From the NCBI GenBank assembly GCA_937924525.1, contig CALDSU010000009.1, forward strand, positions 62,001 through 126,000: 64,000 nucleotides of DNA, written 5' to 3'. Below are positions 30,007 to 36,136 of this stretch, piece by piece. The notes beneath the pieces were generated by a model. It was not told the origin of the DNA and ran no database searches. It was given only the letters and a program-made list of their open reading frames with translations. This stretch comes from an uncultured Bryobacteraceae bacterium (GTDB lineage: Bacteria > Acidobacteriota > Terriglobia > Bryobacterales > Bryobacteraceae). Made by a program: the position numbers and the translations under genes. Position 1 is the stretch's first letter. Every line of letters starts with the position of its first letter.

Positions 30007-30150
30007 CTATTGTTCGTGGCAACCCCGCAACCGCTGCTGGTAGCGGGTGATTTCGCACTCCCCGCCGCCGCACCGAATCCTGCCCTGGGCCGAATCGCAC
30101 AGCCACGGCGGCGGAAGGTCCACAAAATCCGCGCGCTGGCCTTGGCGCAT
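30007..30150 (-). CDS. Small cysteine-containing ORF (hypothetical)
   Basis: 47 codons from the ATG at 30150 to a TAG. The protein has four Cys residues, in LCDSAQ, IRCGGGEC and RGCHEQ. The spacing is not a standard zinc finger. No clear ribosome site precedes the ATG, and an in-frame stop lies two codons upstream. It could be the 5' part of the degraded ORF just downstream, shifted in frame. It is divergent from the acyl-CoA dehydrogenase gene. Confidence 0.3.
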   Translation of the reverse strand: MRQGQRADFVDLPPPWLCDSAQGRIRCGGGECEITRYQQRLRGCHEQ

Positions 30151-30228
30151 AAATTGCTAAGGAAAGACCATACACCGGTTCCCGTGGAGACCTCCGCGCG
30201 GGGGAGGAGCCGGTGAGGAGACCTCTGG

Positions 30229-32457
30229 ATGCGAGCGACGGCTATCGGTAAGGAAACCCAAACGCTGCGGACTCTCCCGGGCGACGACGTGCGGCAGATC
30301 CTGTGGCGCTTTGGCGACCGCTTCGACTTGCAAATGCTGGTGCAGTCGGTGCGGGCGGTGGCCCGGGGGCCGGTGGCCCGCGCGGTAGCGAATGGGGCGC
30401 GACACAGCCACCAGTGGACCAAAGAAAAGGACGATTTGCTGCGCGAGTTCGACGCCGCCGGCATTACCAGCGTGTTCCTGGACCCCGAGTTCGGCGGCTA
30501 TCTGGCCGGGCCGAAAAACCTCGCCCTGGCGCTGACCGCGTTCGAACTGGCGTGGGTGGATGCGGGCGCGGCCACCGCCAGCCTGGCGGGATGCCTGGGC
30601 CTGGCGCCGATTCACGAACGGGGCACGCCGGAACAGAAAGCCGAGTACATGTCGCGGTCGGCGCCGGGCGGCGATCGCACCCCCCTGCGCGGCGCATTCT
30701 GCCTGACCGAACCGATCCCTTATGTGGGCGTCGAAACGGGGCTGCTTTCCGGCAAGGTGCGCATTGCCGAGTGGCGGGAAGGCCAGGAACCGCTGCTGCA
30801 CGTCACCAAGCGCGGCCGGTTCATCACCAACATGGACTTCGCCGGGTTCGTCACGGCGGCGGTGGATTCGGGCGATCCCAAGATCCACGGCAGCTGCATG
30901 GTGATTCTGGAGAAGACCGATGCCGGCGTCTTCGATCCCGGCGCGCCCGCCCGCAAGCTGGTCCACCAGCTTTCTTCCACCACCGATCCCATCTTCGATC
31001 TCACGGTGCCGGCGAGCCGGATCGTGGGCGGCTACACGATCGAGGACGGCGTGGTGGTGCCGAACTATTCGCACAGCGAGATCATCGAAGCCGTGTTCCG
31101 CCGCACGCGCGTGACCGTCGGGCTGATGACGGCGGCCAAGCTGCTCAGCGCGGTCGAGCCGTTGATCCGCTATCACCGCGAGCGGTTCCGCGGGGGAGAA
31201 TCCGTGCCGCCGGGTTCGCCGCGGTTCGAACTGGGCTTGCAGCAGCGCGAGGACGTGTTGCACCGCCTGCTGGAGGTCTGGTCGACCGGGGAGGCGGCGG
31301 CTTCGCTCGGCTTCTCGACCGCCCGGCTATTCGATGAGCTGGACCCGCTCGAGCGGGAGAAGGAGCGCGTCCTGGCGGCGCAGGGCGTCCACGGCGGGAC
31401 CGCGTTGTTCAAGGCGCTGCGCAAACGGCAACCGGACGCGATCGAGTGTCTGACCCTGGCCGCGCAGCCCGCCGGACGGAGGAACCAGGAGCGCTACGAC
31501 GCGCTGGCCGCGGATCCGGTGGTCCGCTTCCTCGCGCTCGACGCCCAGGCGAATGTCCTGTGTCCGGCGGTGAAACTCTGGAATACCGGACACGGCGCCA
31601 ACGTGCTGCGCGAGGCGGTCAGCCTGATGGGCGGCTACGGCATCACGGAGGATTGCCCGGGCTTCCTCGGCTACAAGTGGATGGACGCGCAACTGGAGGC
31701 CACCTACGAGGGGCCCGAAGCGGTGCAGCGCCGCCAGTTGTCCCTGACGATGACCAACGAAGTCTTCCTGGCGCAGTTCAAACTGTGGATCGGGGAGATG
31801 CGGCGCATCGCCGCGCGATATCCCGGCAGCGGGGCGTGCGCCCTGGCCACGGCGATGGAGCTCTGGCTTTGGACCTTGAACCATCTTCAGAAAGCCACCG
31901 ATGCCGCCGGGGTCAAGCTGTACTCGGGCAATCGCCAGGGTGTGACGTTCCCGCTCGCGGACGCCTTGTGCTGGTTGCTGGCCAGCCGCGCCCAGATCCT
32001 CGACGTTGTCGAACTGGCCGAGCAGGGGCCCAGCCACCCGGTGGTCTCCGAAGGGCTGGAGGGACTCCAGAACTTCTTCACCGATCTGTGCCACGCCCAG
32101 GCCGCGCGCGCAGCGGGCGAAGTCGGCCGGATTTGCGCGGAGTTGGTTTTCGGCTACCGGAGACACCCCTCCTGGGACGCGGAAGGCGACTACCAGGGCT
32201 GCTACCAGGAAGACGAACTGATCGCGATCGAAAGTCTGGTGCCCGGCATGTCGGCATGGACGCCGGATATGATCCGGGAGGATGGCTCGCACGCCAGCAA
32301 GGCCGGGCCCTGCGCGCGGATGGACGGGCTGCACGATTTCACGCGGCTGCGCGCCAAGCTGGACGGCTGCCTGACCGGCTCGCTCCTGGCCCGCGACCGG
32401 GCGGCGCATGCGCTGGCTCACGTGATGATTCCCCAAGCGCTGGATTACCCCGCATGA
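30229..32457 (+). CDS. Oversized acyl-CoA dehydrogenase family protein
   Basis: 742 residues, far longer than the 380-600 typical of acyl-CoA dehydrogenases. N-terminal alpha domain, then the FAD strand region (GAFCLTEP, the ACAD 'xCxTEP'-like motif) and the C-terminal helical domain with SLMGGYGITEDCPGF and YEGPEAVQRRQL near residue 491, corresponding to the YEGT motif whose Glu is the catalytic base. About 230 further residues follow, as in extended ACADs, with no recognised motif. The stop overlaps the start of the ETF-QO-like gene by 4 bases (ATGA). It probably oxidises an acyl-CoA and passes electrons to the ETF encoded downstream. Confidence 0.87.
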   Translation: MRATAIGKETQTLRTLPGDDVRQILWRFGDRFDLQMLVQSVRAVARGPVARAVANGARHSHQWTKEKDDLLREFDAAGITSVFLDPEFGGYLAGPKNLALALTAFELAWVDAGAATASLAGCLGLAPIHERGTPEQKAEYMSRSAPGGDRTPLRGAFCLTEPIPYVGVETGLLSGKVRIAEWREGQEPLLHVTKRGRFITNMDFAGFVTAAVDSGDPKIHGSCMVILEKTDAGVFDPGAPARKLVHQLSSTTDPIFDLTVPASRIVGGYTIEDGVVVPNYSHSEIIEAVFRRTRVTVGLMTAAKLLSAVEPLIRYHRERFRGGESVPPGSPRFELGLQQREDVLHRLLEVWSTGEAAASLGFSTARLFDELDPLEREKERVLAAQGVHGGTALFKALRKRQPDAIECLTLAAQPAGRRNQERYDALAADPVVRFLALDAQANVLCPAVKLWNTGHGANVLREAVSLMGGYGITEDCPGFLGYKWMDAQLEATYEGPEAVQRRQLSLTMTNEVFLAQFKLWIGEMRRIAARYPGSGACALATAMELWLWTLNHLQKATDAAGVKLYSGNRQGVTFPLADALCWLLASRAQILDVVELAEQGPSHPVVSEGLEGLQNFFTDLCHAQAARAAGEVGRICAELVFGYRRHPSWDAEGDYQGCYQEDELIAIESLVPGMSAWTPDMIREDGSHASKAGPCARMDGLHDFTRLRAKLDGCLTGSLLARDRAAHALAHVMIPQALDYPA

Positions 32458-34286
32458 GCGAACCGGTGGAACGCCAGACGATGGACGTCGACATCGTGTG
32501 CGTGGGGTTCGGTCCCGCGAGCGCCGGATTTCTGACCACGCTGGGGCGCGGCATCGTGCAGGATGATGGCGCGCCGCGCTTCGAAAGCCCGTCGGCGCCC
32601 GGGGTGCCGCTCCAGGTAATTTGCTACGAGCGCGCCGACGACGTGGGCTTCGCCGTCTCCGGCGTCGTGACGCGGGCGCGGGCGATTCGCGAGACCTTCC
32701 CCGACTTGAATCCCGCGGAGATCCCCATGGCCGCGCCGGTGCGGGAGGAAAAACTGGTCTACCTGCTCGACCCGGTAGGCGCCAGCCGCCGTCCCTGGGT
32801 CTTGCGCGCCGCCGACCGGGCGCTGCGGCTGGCAGGGGTGCGGGACGAAGCGTTCGAGCTGCCGTATTTGCCCGAGTTCCTCGCGAAACGCGACGGGCTG
32901 CTCCTCTCGCTCGGACAGTTTCAGCAGTGGGTGAGCCAGCAGGTGTTGGCCACCGGCGCGGTGCAGGTGTGGCCATGCACCCCGGTGGTGGAACCGTTGA
33001 TCGAAGGGGAGCGGGTGGCCGGGGTGCGCCTGGCGGACCAGGGTACGGACGCAAAAGGAAATCCGGCGGAGGTGTTCCTGCCGGGAATGGACGTGCGCGC
33101 GGCGCTCACCGTAGTGGGAGACGGGCCGGTGGGCGCGATCGGCCGCGCCCTGGACGAACGCTTCGGCCTGCCCGCGGAACATCAGCGCGACGAGTGGGCG
33201 GTGGGGATGAAGATGGTGATCGAGCTGCCCGCGGGGTGCGAACTCGAAGCTGGCACGGTGATCCATACCATCGGGTTTCCGGAGCCGGAGATCTTCGGCT
33301 TTTTCTACGTGCACCCGGAGCGGGTCGCCTCGGTGGGCATCTTCGTGCCGAGCTGGTTCGACAGCCCCGTGCGCACCGCCTACCGCTATTTGCAGCACTA
33401 CGTGCAGCATCCCTACCTGTGGCGGCATCTCGCCGGAGGCACGCTGCGAAGCTGGGGGGCCAAGTCGCTGCTGGAATCCGGGCGGCGCGGCGAGCCGCGG
33501 CTGGCGGGGGACGGCTACGCCCGCATTGGCGAGAGTTCCGGCAGTACGAATGTGCTTACCGGGTCCGGCGTGGATGAAGCCTGGCACACGGGCGCGCTGC
33601 TCGCCGAATCCGTCCTGGAACTACTGCGCGAGGGGAAGCCGTTTTCCAAGGAGAACCTTGAAGCCACCTATGTCCGCCGGCGCCGCGCCAGTTGGCTGGA
33701 CAAGGAAGCGCGCGTGGCGGAAAGAGCGCGCGACGGATTTCAGCGCGGCTTCCTGACCGGCATGTTTGGCATGGCGCTGGCCGGCTTCACGGGCGGCCGC
33801 CTGGCGATCCCGGCCCGGAGGCGGCCGTCCTGGAAAACGCGCCCGATCGAAGAGTATTACGCCGGCCGCATCCCCCGCGCCGAGATGGAAGCGTTGCGTC
33901 GGCAGTGCGCGGCGGAGGGCAGGCCGCTGCACGACGCCCTGATGACGCGCGCGGGCTGGCCCGCGATTCCCTACGACGGCCGTCTGCTGGTGACGCACCA
34001 GGACGCGCTGCTGCTGGGCGGCAAGGTGCAAGCGCCGCCGTCGGCCTTCGATCACGTCGTCTTTCTGTATCCCCATCTCTGCGAGACCTGCGGCGCGCAG
34101 GTGTGCGTCGAGATCTGCTCGGGCGAAGCCATTCGCCCCGGCGACGCCGGCGCGCCCGTCTTTGACCGCGACAAGTGCGTGCACTGCGGCGCCTGCTTCT
34201 GGAACTGCGGACAGCGGACCCCGGAGGGCCGGACGAACCTGCAATTCCGCGCCGGTTTTGGCGGTCTGCATTCTTCCGAAAACTGA
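32454..34286 (+). CDS. ETF-quinone oxidoreductase-like (FixC/FixX-type) flavoprotein with extra cysteines
   Basis: 610 residues. An N-terminal FAD-binding Rossmann motif (VDIVCVGFGPASAGFL) and the ETF-QO-type middle (VVGDGPVGAIGRALDERFG, GFPEPEIFGFFYVHPERVASVG) precede a ferredoxin-like C-terminus. Canonical ETF-QO holds one 4Fe-4S cluster on four Cys. Here there are eight: Cys543, 546, 551, 555 and 575, 578, 581, 585, the last four as CxxCxxCxxxC. A second cluster is therefore possible. It presumably moves electrons from the ETF encoded next to a quinone in the inner membrane. Coupled to the dehydrogenase gene by ATGA overlap; the ETF-beta gene starts 7 bases after its stop. Confidence 0.87.
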   Translation: MSEPVERQTMDVDIVCVGFGPASAGFLTTLGRGIVQDDGAPRFESPSAPGVPLQVICYERADDVGFAVSGVVTRARAIRETFPDLNPAEIPMAAPVREEKLVYLLDPVGASRRPWVLRAADRALRLAGVRDEAFELPYLPEFLAKRDGLLLSLGQFQQWVSQQVLATGAVQVWPCTPVVEPLIEGERVAGVRLADQGTDAKGNPAEVFLPGMDVRAALTVVGDGPVGAIGRALDERFGLPAEHQRDEWAVGMKMVIELPAGCELEAGTVIHTIGFPEPEIFGFFYVHPERVASVGIFVPSWFDSPVRTAYRYLQHYVQHPYLWRHLAGGTLRSWGAKSLLESGRRGEPRLAGDGYARIGESSGSTNVLTGSGVDEAWHTGALLAESVLELLREGKPFSKENLEATYVRRRRASWLDKEARVAERARDGFQRGFLTGMFGMALAGFTGGRLAIPARRRPSWKTRPIEEYYAGRIPRAEMEALRRQCAAEGRPLHDALMTRAGWPAIPYDGRLLVTHQDALLLGGKVQAPPSAFDHVVFLYPHLCETCGAQVCVEICSGEAIRPGDAGAPVFDRDKCVHCGACFWNCGQRTPEGRTNLQFRAGFGGLHSSEN

Positions 34287-34293
34287 ACCGATC

Positions 34294-35094
34294 ATGAGCG
34301 TTTCCTATCAAATCGTCGTCTGCGCCGGCCTGGCGCCCGATCCTTTGCAAACCTTGGAGCCCGTTCCCGGACCAGCGTTGAAGAACGAGCTGGCGCTGCC
34401 CGCGGTCCTGGACCCCTGGGCGGCGCATGCTCTGTATGAAGCGGCCCATCTGGCGAAGTCGCGCCCGGGCTCCAAGGTGTACCTGGTGGCGCTGGCGCCG
34501 AAGGCCAAGCTGCAACAGGTGATGATGACCGTGGCGCAGAAACTGCCGTTTGAGCTGATCGCCCTCGACGGGCCGATGAGCGGGTTTGCCGATGCGGCGG
34601 AAGTCGCGGCGGCGCTCAGCGCCGCAGTGAGCGGCATCGCCGGCCTCGACCGCGAGCGGTGGTTGCTGTTTGGCGGCTGGGAATCGGCTACGCGGGGCGC
34701 CGGCGCCACGATGCAGATGCTGGCGGAACGGCTCGGCATCATCGACCAATTCCTGGCCGTGGACGAACTGCGCGTGGAGGAGGACGGGTCGCTGCGCGTG
34801 TGGGAGCGGGTGGAAGGCGGGGGACACCAGGTTTCGCTATGCGAGGGGCCGCCGGCCATGCTGGCGTGGGCGACCGGGAGACTGCCCGAGCCGGTGAACA
34901 ACCCGCAGATCGGCATGGCCAACATGCGCGGCGTGATGCCCGCGCTGCAACGCGCCAGACCCGCGCCGCCGCTGGGGGGCGGCATCGAGTACCGCAAAGT
35001 GGCGCTGCCCGCGCAACAGCGCCAGACGCGCGTCGTCAAGGACGCCGCGCCGGAGGAGATTGCGCGCGAACTGGCCGCCTGGATCCGGGAGTAA
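34294..35094 (+). CDS. Electron transfer flavoprotein beta subunit
   Basis: 266 residues from the ATG at 34294. SYQIVVCAGLAPDPL at the start, ELALPAVLDPWAAHALYEAAHL (the adenine/AMP-site helix region), LLFGGWESATRGAGATMQMLAERLG (the ETF-beta 'G.xS.DxDxGQTGP..A..LG' region, heavily changed) and GMANMRGVMPALQRARP near the end fit ETF-beta/FixA. The recognition-loop Lys/Leu anchor of canonical ETF-beta is not obvious. It pairs with the ETF-alpha gene 13 bases downstream and belongs to the dehydrogenase-ETF-QO cluster. It is cytoplasmic. Confidence 0.85.
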   Translation: MSVSYQIVVCAGLAPDPLQTLEPVPGPALKNELALPAVLDPWAAHALYEAAHLAKSRPGSKVYLVALAPKAKLQQVMMTVAQKLPFELIALDGPMSGFADAAEVAAALSAAVSGIAGLDRERWLLFGGWESATRGAGATMQMLAERLGIIDQFLAVDELRVEEDGSLRVWERVEGGGHQVSLCEGPPAMLAWATGRLPEPVNNPQIGMANMRGVMPALQRARPAPPLGGGIEYRKVALPAQQRQTRVVKDAAPEEIARELAAWIRE

Positions 35095-35107
35095 CGGGAG
35101 CAACGCG

Positions 35108-36136
35108 ATGGAGACGATTCTGGTTTTGCTGCACACCGAAGCGGACGGCTCGCTGGGAAGGAACGCCTGGGAAGCCTGCCAGGCCGCGCGCGCGGCGGCG
35201 GAGGCATCCTCCGGCGGAGGAAGGCTGGTGGCGGGCGTCGTGGGCGCGGGCGCGCGGGCGGCGGCCGAGCGTCTGGGCGGGCTGGGGGCGCAGCGCCTGC
35301 TGGCGGTCGAGGGCGAGGCCTACGCCGTATCCCGCTATGCGACCGACGCGGCGGCGGCGGAAGCGCTGGCGCGCGCAGCCCAGGCCACGCTGGTGCTCGC
35401 GCCGGGCACCTCGCGCTGGTCGCGCGCCCTGCCGGGGGTGGCGCAGCGGCTGAACGCTAAGGTGGATACGCACGTCACCGCGCTGAGCTGCGACGGCGGC
35501 GCGCTCACGATCTCCCGGTGGTATTACCGCCAGCGCATCGACGTGACGCTGGCCCGCCAGGCCCGGCCCTGGGTTCTGTTGTTGGACGGCGGCGCCTTCC
35601 CGGCGTGGGCGCCCACGGATGGGCAGGCGCAGGTCGAGTCCGTCGCGCCCTCGCCCCCCGCCGTGCGCACGCGCGTCGAGGGCATCGAATCCCCGGCCGC
35701 CGACCGGCAGACCATCCGTCCGGACGCCCCGCTGCTGTTTGTCGCGGGCGCCGGCTGGACCAAGAAGCAGCGCGATGGGCAGCCCCATGTCGAAGAAGCC
35801 GCCTCGCTGATCCTCGATTTCGTCACCCGCGCGCAGTGCTCGCTCGGCAGCAGCAAGTCTCTGGTGGATTTGAGCGGCGAGGGGCAGGCCGTCCTGCCGT
35901 TCCTGACCCATTTGCACCAGGTCGGCCAGACCGGTTCCACTCCCCGCCACCCAAAAGGATTGGCGACCTGCTGCCATGGCGAAGAGCCCCACGTGGTCGG
36001 CTGGCGGTTCATCGCGGACCGGCGCGCCGTCAACCTCGATGCCAATTGCGGCTGGGCGCGCGGCAAGGCGGACGTGCTGTACGTCGCCGACGCGTTTGCC
36101 GTCATGCGCCACCTGAACGCCTTGCTGGACGGATAG
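35108..36136 (+). CDS. Electron transfer flavoprotein alpha subunit, divergent FAD site
   Basis: 342 residues from the ATG at 35108. TILVLLHTEADGSLGRNAWEA opens the ETF-alpha N-domain. The FAD domain retains HQVGQTGSTP, but where ETF-alpha normally has GISGAIQH the protein reads CCHGEEPH, and the usual GGRG segment reads GAGW. The FAD-binding site is thus altered or uses other contacts. The end, KADVLYVADAFAVMRHL, matches the family. It forms the heterodimer with the ETF-beta encoded upstream, taking electrons from the oversized acyl-CoA dehydrogenase and delivering them to the ETF-QO-like protein. Confidence 0.82.
   Translation: METILVLLHTEADGSLGRNAWEACQAARAAAEASSGGGRLVAGVVGAGARAAAERLGGLGAQRLLAVEGEAYAVSRYATDAAAAEALARAAQATLVLAPGTSRWSRALPGVAQRLNAKVDTHVTALSCDGGALTISRWYYRQRIDVTLARQARPWVLLLDGGAFPAWAPTDGQAQVESVAPSPPAVRTRVEGIESPAADRQTIRPDAPLLFVAGAGWTKKQRDGQPHVEEAASLILDFVTRAQCSLGSSKSLVDLSGEGQAVLPFLTHLHQVGQTGSTPRHPKGLATCCHGEEPHVVGWRFIADRRAVNLDANCGWARGKADVLYVADAFAVMRHLNALLDG

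Follow-up and report, generated by a model that had tools for sequence, protein, structure and literature searches.

Does an acyl-CoA dehydrogenase (ACAD) ever keep an electron transfer flavoprotein (ETF) and a quinone oxidoreductase to itself? The question is raised by a four-gene cluster in a 64,000-nucleotide stretch of DNA from an uncultured Bryobacteraceae bacterium (GCA_937924525.1, contig CALDSU010000009.1, positions 62,001 to 126,000; the window), which encodes an ACAD, an ETF:quinone oxidoreductase-like protein (QO), ETF-beta and ETF-alpha. The usual view of an ETF is that of a common hub, with one ETF serving many dehydrogenases. We read the module, with a probability of roughly 0.6 and from sequence, as a stand-alone acyl-thioester:quinone oxidoreductase that would operate outside beta-oxidation, privately and without bifurcation.

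The proposed chain is short. The two-domain ACAD would draw two electrons from a single, specific acyl thioester inside the cell, and its own ETF (alpha/beta) would pass them, without bifurcation, to its own QO. The two [4Fe-4S] clusters and the flavin adenine dinucleotide (FAD) of the QO would then hand them to the quinone pool, probably to menaquinone. A changed docking loop in ETF-beta and a changed FAD site in ETF-alpha may insulate this chain from the cell's ordinary ETF/EtfD route. We infer the electron order, the cluster number, the quinone type, the insulation and the oxidative direction; oxidation appears more likely than reduction.

Features of the module, in coordinates of the window:
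30143..30158, + strand: putative sigma-54 (-24/-12) promoter TGGCGCATAAATTGCT (GG-N10-GC, 10 of 11 scored positions)
30229..32457, + strand: two-domain ACAD, 742 residues (PF02771 and PF00441 over cut-off; AlphaFold model resembles two-domain ACAD chains)
31702..31713, + strand: codons of TYEG with the presumed catalytic Glu494
32454..34286, + strand: QO, 610 residues (PF21162; profile match to 2gmh_A)
33195..33470, + strand: quinone-binding domain of the QO (PF21162 on residues 252-343 of the open reading frame starting at 32442)
34080..34208, + strand: eight-cysteine segment of the QO, C543 to C585, with room for two [4Fe-4S] clusters (CxxCx4CxxxC...CxxCxxCxxxC)
34294..35094, + strand: ETF-beta, 266 residues (PF01012; tree clade)
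34894..34956, + strand: ETF-beta segment at the ACAD recognition loop, VNNPQIGMANMRGVMPALQRA, aligned to LNEPRYASLPNIMKAKK of ordinary ETF
35108..36136, + strand: ETF-alpha, 342 residues (PF01012; fold match to ETF-alpha chains)
35852..35857, + strand: Ser249-Lys250 of ETF-alpha, Arg in reference ETF-alphas (motif counts)
35924..36004, + strand: ETF-alpha FAD-site segment GQTGSTPRHPKGLATCCHGEEPHVVGW (GQTG and CCHGEEPH)

Operon structure and distribution

The gene set, its co-occurrence, the separate ETF clade, the altered motifs and the promoter-like site are all legible in the sequence itself. The four genes form one tight plus-strand operon, as an earlier note on this DNA had described: ACAD and QO overlap by 4 bases, and gaps of 7 and 13 bases separate QO from ETF-beta and ETF-beta from ETF-alpha. 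The last gap follows from the ATG at 35108; in the list of open reading frames, ETF-alpha begins with the TTG at 35060. All four proteins pass general Pfam cut-offs, and no NCBIfam model listed for any of them reaches its cut-off (for the QO, among the best 25 of 38 models).

A pattern-based scan recovers 77 QO loci at 57-72% identity, labelled Acidobacteriota, Verrucomicrobiota, Sumerlaeota, Anaeromyxobacter, Desulfovibrionaceae, Omnitrophota, Latescibacterota, Hydrogenedentota, Geobacteraceae and a few others; single labels may be wrong because most of these loci come from metagenome bins. All four genes stand in order at 38 of the 77, and at 31 of the 45 with room on both sides, where room means 2600 bases of contig upstream and 2200 downstream of the QO. 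At 52 of 63 loci with room, an ACAD is encoded no more than 1200 bases from the QO, and the ETF pair follows downstream at 47 of 57. The neighbourhood search that the earlier note had proposed thus finds the order kept in several phyla. An orthologue of the ACAD, 60-68% identical, is present in 12/12 genomes searched, comprising 10 without an ACAD at the fetched QO locus (some of these contigs ended nearby) and 2 with one. Stops inside three of the orthologue matches appear, judging by gene starts, to lie upstream of the start codons. Four Desulfovibrionales-type bins (L139, L140, L142, L143) have ACADs called at 672-683 residues, about 60 below that of the window.

In an even sample of 297 genomes of the phylum, with at most four candidates scored in each, 112 have QO matches at E <= 1e-20. 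Near full-length relatives are found in 8, including the genome of the window, the other seven being 61-67% identical; the remaining matches, at 27-37%, are presumably ordinary ETF-QOs. Across 34 loci, pairwise distances within the four families are correlated (r 0.65-0.73), and 0/2000 permutations reach such values; L044 and L122, which share genomes with L068 and L045, were dropped from these and the promoter counts. On the joint tree, the 12 rows labelled Acidobacteriota require three changes, which fits transfer between phyla without proving it.

No other neighbour is widely conserved in the fetched flanks of 84 loci, the 77 of the scan and 7 more, in which two genomes are present twice and many contigs are short; the next families occur in 11 and 5 loci. 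Around the ACAD in nine genomes lie glycosyltransferases, response regulators and phage-like genes (named by eye), with nothing metabolic in common. Neither survey points to a substrate.

The -24/-12 site begins 86 bases before the ATG of the ACAD, and a scan of the same upstream region returns no sigma-70 promoter-like site. Scores of at least 9 of 11 occur upstream of the ACAD at 23/69 loci. The background is 2.7% in shuffles that preserve base composition only, 24/557 for other genes, 2/82 for QOs and 0/57 for ETF-betas. Among loci of the joint tree, such sites occur in 8/9 of the acidobacterial clade of the window and 2/25 of the others; in seven of these 25, not even a GG-N10-GC candidate exists. 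The flanks of the sites are unconserved. Because the 23 sites were picked by score, only unscored columns are independent, and one of these, an A before TTGC, is present in 87% of them. An rpoN gene is present in the genome of the window, and sigma-54 RNA polymerase probably activates the operon in this acidobacterial clade.

Redox proteins with altered sites

The earlier note had seen that the electron carriers depart from canonical motifs, and these departures prove to be conserved across relatives. Motif counts use 51/55 ETF-alpha, 54/59 ETF-beta, 67/89 QO and 60/67 ACAD family members, after duplicates and proteins outside set length limits were left out; a 'CG' filter on the QO removed none, and the 89 QO members include three ordinary ETF-QO loci (L047-L049).

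ETF-beta and ETF-alpha both contain PF01012 (31.2 and 85.4 bits, cut-off 26.7). The FAD-domain model PF00766 matches ETF-alpha far below threshold (E 0.08, 13.4 bits against a cut-off of 27), and the FAD site itself is altered: GQTG is kept in 51/51, and CCHGEEPH, also in 51/51, stands where 18/23 references have GISGA(I/V)Q. Cys288, Cys289 and Cys314 are cysteines in all 51 module sequences and in 0/23 references; they could form a disulfide or a metal site. The Lys250 position is Lys in 51/51 and Arg in 23/23 references. PMC12630350 counts this Arg among three residues by which the FAD/semiquinone potential is raised, and a title in the reference list of that paper (Talfournier 2001) gives about 200 mV. 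The engineered R236K ETF protein 3clu carries the same kind of change. Different redox potentials, which the earlier note had suggested, are plausible on the basis of this Lys for Arg and of the two predicted clusters of the QO. In ETF-beta, the loop NxPxxGMxNM occurs in 54/54 module sequences and 0/22 references; the corresponding recognition loop of human ETF docks up to 13 dehydrogenases (PMC4148887).

The AlphaFold model of ETF-alpha has a mean predicted local distance difference test (pLDDT) score of 80.1, with residues 274-324, including the odd FAD segment, under 50. Its nearest structures are ETF-alpha chains, such as 5ol2_A (Z 25.1, root-mean-square deviation (rmsd) 10.4, 265 aligned).

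Phylogeny sets the pair apart. Module sequences form a single clade with 100/100 support in both ETF trees (48 rows for alpha, 43 for beta), although the bootstrap of the alpha tree is unsettled and the beta tree gives long-branch warnings among references, some of whose long branches meet. The clade lies outside all other ETFs included (27 for alpha, 22 for beta), which comprise FixAB, E. coli FixAB and YdiQR, alpha-proteobacterial, haloarchaeal and acidobacterial sequences; clostridial bifurcating ETFs, included in the alpha tree, also fall outside it. Under midpoint rooting its separating branch measures 3.53 + 1.41 changes per column for alpha and 3.15 + 0.67 for beta. The module is thus neither nested within ordinary housekeeping ETFs nor joined to Fix, and a housekeeping identity is disfavoured. 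Placement among housekeeping ETFs, which the earlier note had named as fatal to a dedicated path, therefore does not count against it. Plasmid matches of ETF-alpha are limited to two weak ones at 28.8% identity.

The QO belongs to a familiar family, with PF21162 at 35.7 bits (cut-off 27.7) and a profile match to the ETF-QO 2gmh_A at E 2e-40. Ordinary ETF-QO has one C-terminal [4Fe-4S] cluster held by four cysteines. The module QO shares PF21162, but its C-terminal part carries two ferredoxin-like motifs with eight cysteines in all, present in 67/67 sequences and invariant in all 24 alignment rows; they are predicted to bind two [4Fe-4S] clusters.

The ACAD scores 44.4 bits with PF02771 (cut-off 22.9) and 38.7 with PF00441 (cut-off 22.4). 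TYEG occurs in 59/60 orthologues and LTEP in 60/60, and the TEPxxGSD loop expected of an ACAD is absent ((T/S)EPxxGSD 0/60). We take the Glu of YEG to be the catalytic one of the family, and hence Glu494 presumably serves here. The AlphaFold model (mean pLDDT 76.6, predicted template modelling score 0.83) lies nearest to 3owa_B, a two-domain ACAD (Z 27.6, rmsd 3.4, 535 aligned), followed among others by VLCAD 2uxw (Z 27.2, rmsd 6.7, 505 aligned) and ACAD9 8phe_A (Z 26.7, rmsd 6.7, 506 aligned). The modelled fold is that of a two-domain ACAD, and with the top five rows within 1 Z no subfamily is singled out.

Other electron routes and beta-oxidation in the carriers

The genome of the window (5.52 Mb, 99.3% complete), in which the module lies on contig C9, contains a second, ordinary ETF pair (etfBA) on contig C4 (L010:9040-12326). 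By eye, this pair lies directly downstream of acyl carrier protein-like and fabF-like genes. A second ETF-QO was not found in this genome. Contig C5 encodes at about 699.8 kb an EtfD/EMO-like membrane Fe-S protein (L194), which matches 9ojn_A at E 8e-85, an 'Iron-sulfur-binding reductase' of 1042 residues that we take to be M. smegmatis EtfD. PMC13083937 describes EtfD as connecting ETF to menaquinone, so electrons of the ordinary ETF probably leave by a separate outlet. ETFs of Desulfitobacterium encoded next to a DUF224 gene are placed in 'group 5' (PMC9888536), and the ordinary pair is perhaps of this kind. The earlier suggestion that each carrier is private must be qualified: a second etfAB exists elsewhere in the genome and no second ETF-QO was found, but the ordinary pair could use the EtfD-like protein instead.

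ETF, thiolase and further ACADs were searched in nineteen carriers of the module, and enoyl-CoA hydratase and 3-hydroxyacyl-CoA dehydrogenase (3HCDH) in eleven; G304 was left out of the former searches, and G304, G307 and the seven acidobacteria besides that of the window out of the latter. Ten of the carriers belong to neither the acidobacteria nor Anaeromyxobacter (G297-G303, G305, G306, G308): six Desulfovibrionales, two proteobacteria, one verrucomicrobial bin and one sumerlaeotal bin. Within these ten, 3HCDH is detected in 0/10, thiolase over cut-off in 1/10 (G306, weak) and hydratase over cut-off in 1/10 (G303, two matches; G305 has one below cut-off). A further ACAD occurs in 1/10 (G301), with none detected in the other nine, and a further ETF pair in 1/10 (G305), G301 having a single ETF match. 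The same models recover thiolase in 12, 3HCDH in 7 and hydratase in 13 of 14 known control genomes. The lack of 3HCDH and the rarity of further ACADs and ETFs in these carriers support a dedicated path.

The picture differs by group. Strong thiolase matches occur in six of eight acidobacteria and in Anaeromyxobacter oryzae, with one weak match each in G104 and G156. ETFs other than those of the module are matched in each of the eight acidobacteria. Anaeromyxobacter oryzae has six ETF-domain matches besides the two of its module (L153, L169, G307:C1:588697-589970 and 5284644-5287989). In the genome of the window thiolase, hydratase and 3HCDH are all present.

Several points weigh against a private oxidoreductase outside beta-oxidation. 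The three enzymes in the genome of the window leave room for a beta-oxidation role there, and since acidobacteria have thiolase and extra ETFs, the non-beta-oxidation reading leans on orthology in that phylum. The absences in the ten carriers are weak singly, because these genomes are metagenome bins of unstated completeness, and the 3HCDH model finds only 7/14 controls. The ETF pair is not downstream at 10/57 QO loci with room and the ACAD not upstream at 11/63, and the distance correlation partly mirrors shared descent. Finally, the model of ETF-alpha lends no support to FAD binding, its FAD-site segment lying under pLDDT 50.

Competing explanations and known systems

The dedicated path to the quinone pool that the earlier note proposed draws support from gene order, the ACAD orthologues, the ETF clade, the ETF-beta loop and the separate ordinary ETF/EtfD-like outlet. 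A reversed chain, in which menaquinol would feed QO, ETF and then an ACAD-like enzyme that reduces an enoyl thioester, to dispose of electrons or for biosynthetic saturation, is possible though doubtful. The potentials of ACADs and menaquinone are close, so the chain may be reversible, and carriers mostly without detected later beta-oxidation enzymes could not process an enoyl product further. The best NCBIfam match of the ACAD, at 46.9 of 640 bits far below cut-off, is acryloyl-CoA reductase. However, no reductive partner or substrate is visible, and known respiratory ETF-QO chains run towards quinone. Equipment for ordinary fatty-acid beta-oxidation that has merely diverged would account for the closeness of the ACAD model to two-domain ACADs such as VLCAD 2uxw, and for the thiolase, hydratase and 3HCDH in the genome of the window. 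Against it stand the other carriers, with 3HCDH and thiolase in 0/10 and 1/10, the lack of any conserved beta-oxidation neighbour and the distance of the ETF clade from ordinary ETFs; it is the least probable account weighed here.

A FixABCX-like bifurcating or confurcating complex, with FixC and FixX fused and ferredoxin docking at the two clusters, is quite improbable. It would fit the eight QO cysteines, as expected for two clusters, since FixX is likewise described with two [4Fe-4S] motifs (PMC6085437), and the QO has a weak profile match to FixC 7koe_C (E 2.4e-6). Group 2 bifurcating ETFs are characterized in PMC10734219 by RPxFGG, with a key Arg, and by RxGV and GxxSPTxV in the other subunit. 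Assigned to subunits through the 5ol2 alignment, and with the last searched as SPTxV, these motifs are missing from the module: RPxFGG in 0/51 ETF-alphas (49/51 have RWxYRQR), RxGV in 0/54 and SPTxV in 0/54 ETF-betas. Both rhizobial Fix references have all three, as does a second ETF pair (L150/L168) of the verrucomicrobial bin G305. E. coli FixAB and YdiQR have none, so the missing motifs are strong evidence only against a complex of the rhizobial/clostridial type. The module also does not join Fix in the ETF trees, and the FixABCX-like bifurcation raised in the earlier note is not borne out.

A bolder proposal, which we hold tentatively and consider unlikely as a whole, is that the module represents a deep further ETF group with a rebuilt flavin site (GQTG...CCHGEEPH...CGW, its three cysteines possibly a metal, disulfide or cluster site). 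It would serve one ACAD, either in acyl-thioester respiration of a single step or in enoyl reduction driven by quinol, with no link to beta-oxidation, as a cassette passed between phyla, and the two QO clusters might admit ferredoxin to drive an uphill step to menaquinone.

As a stand-alone oxidoreductase, the module would be a complete private line, and in several bacteria its ETF and ACAD are the sole ones detected, with most of beta-oxidation undetected. Two questions can now be put to the test: to what extent re-tuning and re-docking can fit an ETF to one partner, and which acyl thioester merits a respiratory wire of its own. There is also a warning for annotation: the family names suggest beta-oxidation, which is probably wrong in carriers lacking it in our searches.

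Each part comes from a known family. No prior description of the four-gene set was recognised in the literature searched, most subscription journals lying beyond its reach, and we know of none of this ETF clade, two-cluster QO or fixed pairing. The closest relative in plan is the mitochondrial/bacterial ACAD-ETF-ETF-QO chain, with the same three kinds of protein and the same presumed electron order. Unlike that chain, the module gives a single ACAD an ETF and a QO of its own, mostly encoded in the same operon, and its ETF forms a separate clade whose ETF-alpha lacks GISGA(I/V)Q and has Lys for Arg. Butyryl-CoA dehydrogenase/EtfAB and caffeyl-CoA reductase/EtfAB likewise join one ACAD-family enzyme to its own ETF pair; to our knowledge, these complexes include no quinone oxidoreductase. 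Both are bifurcating three-subunit complexes, according to PMC6085437. EtfD/EMO, as in mycobacterial EtfD, also delivers ETF electrons to menaquinone and is described in PMC13083937 as not homologous to ETF-QO; the genome of the window has a homologue as a separate outlet. FixABCX/EtfABCX resembles the module in combining an ETF pair, a flavin quinone oxidoreductase and a two-cluster ferredoxin-type segment, whereas the module fuses the QO with the ferredoxin part, includes an ACAD and lacks the group 2 motifs.

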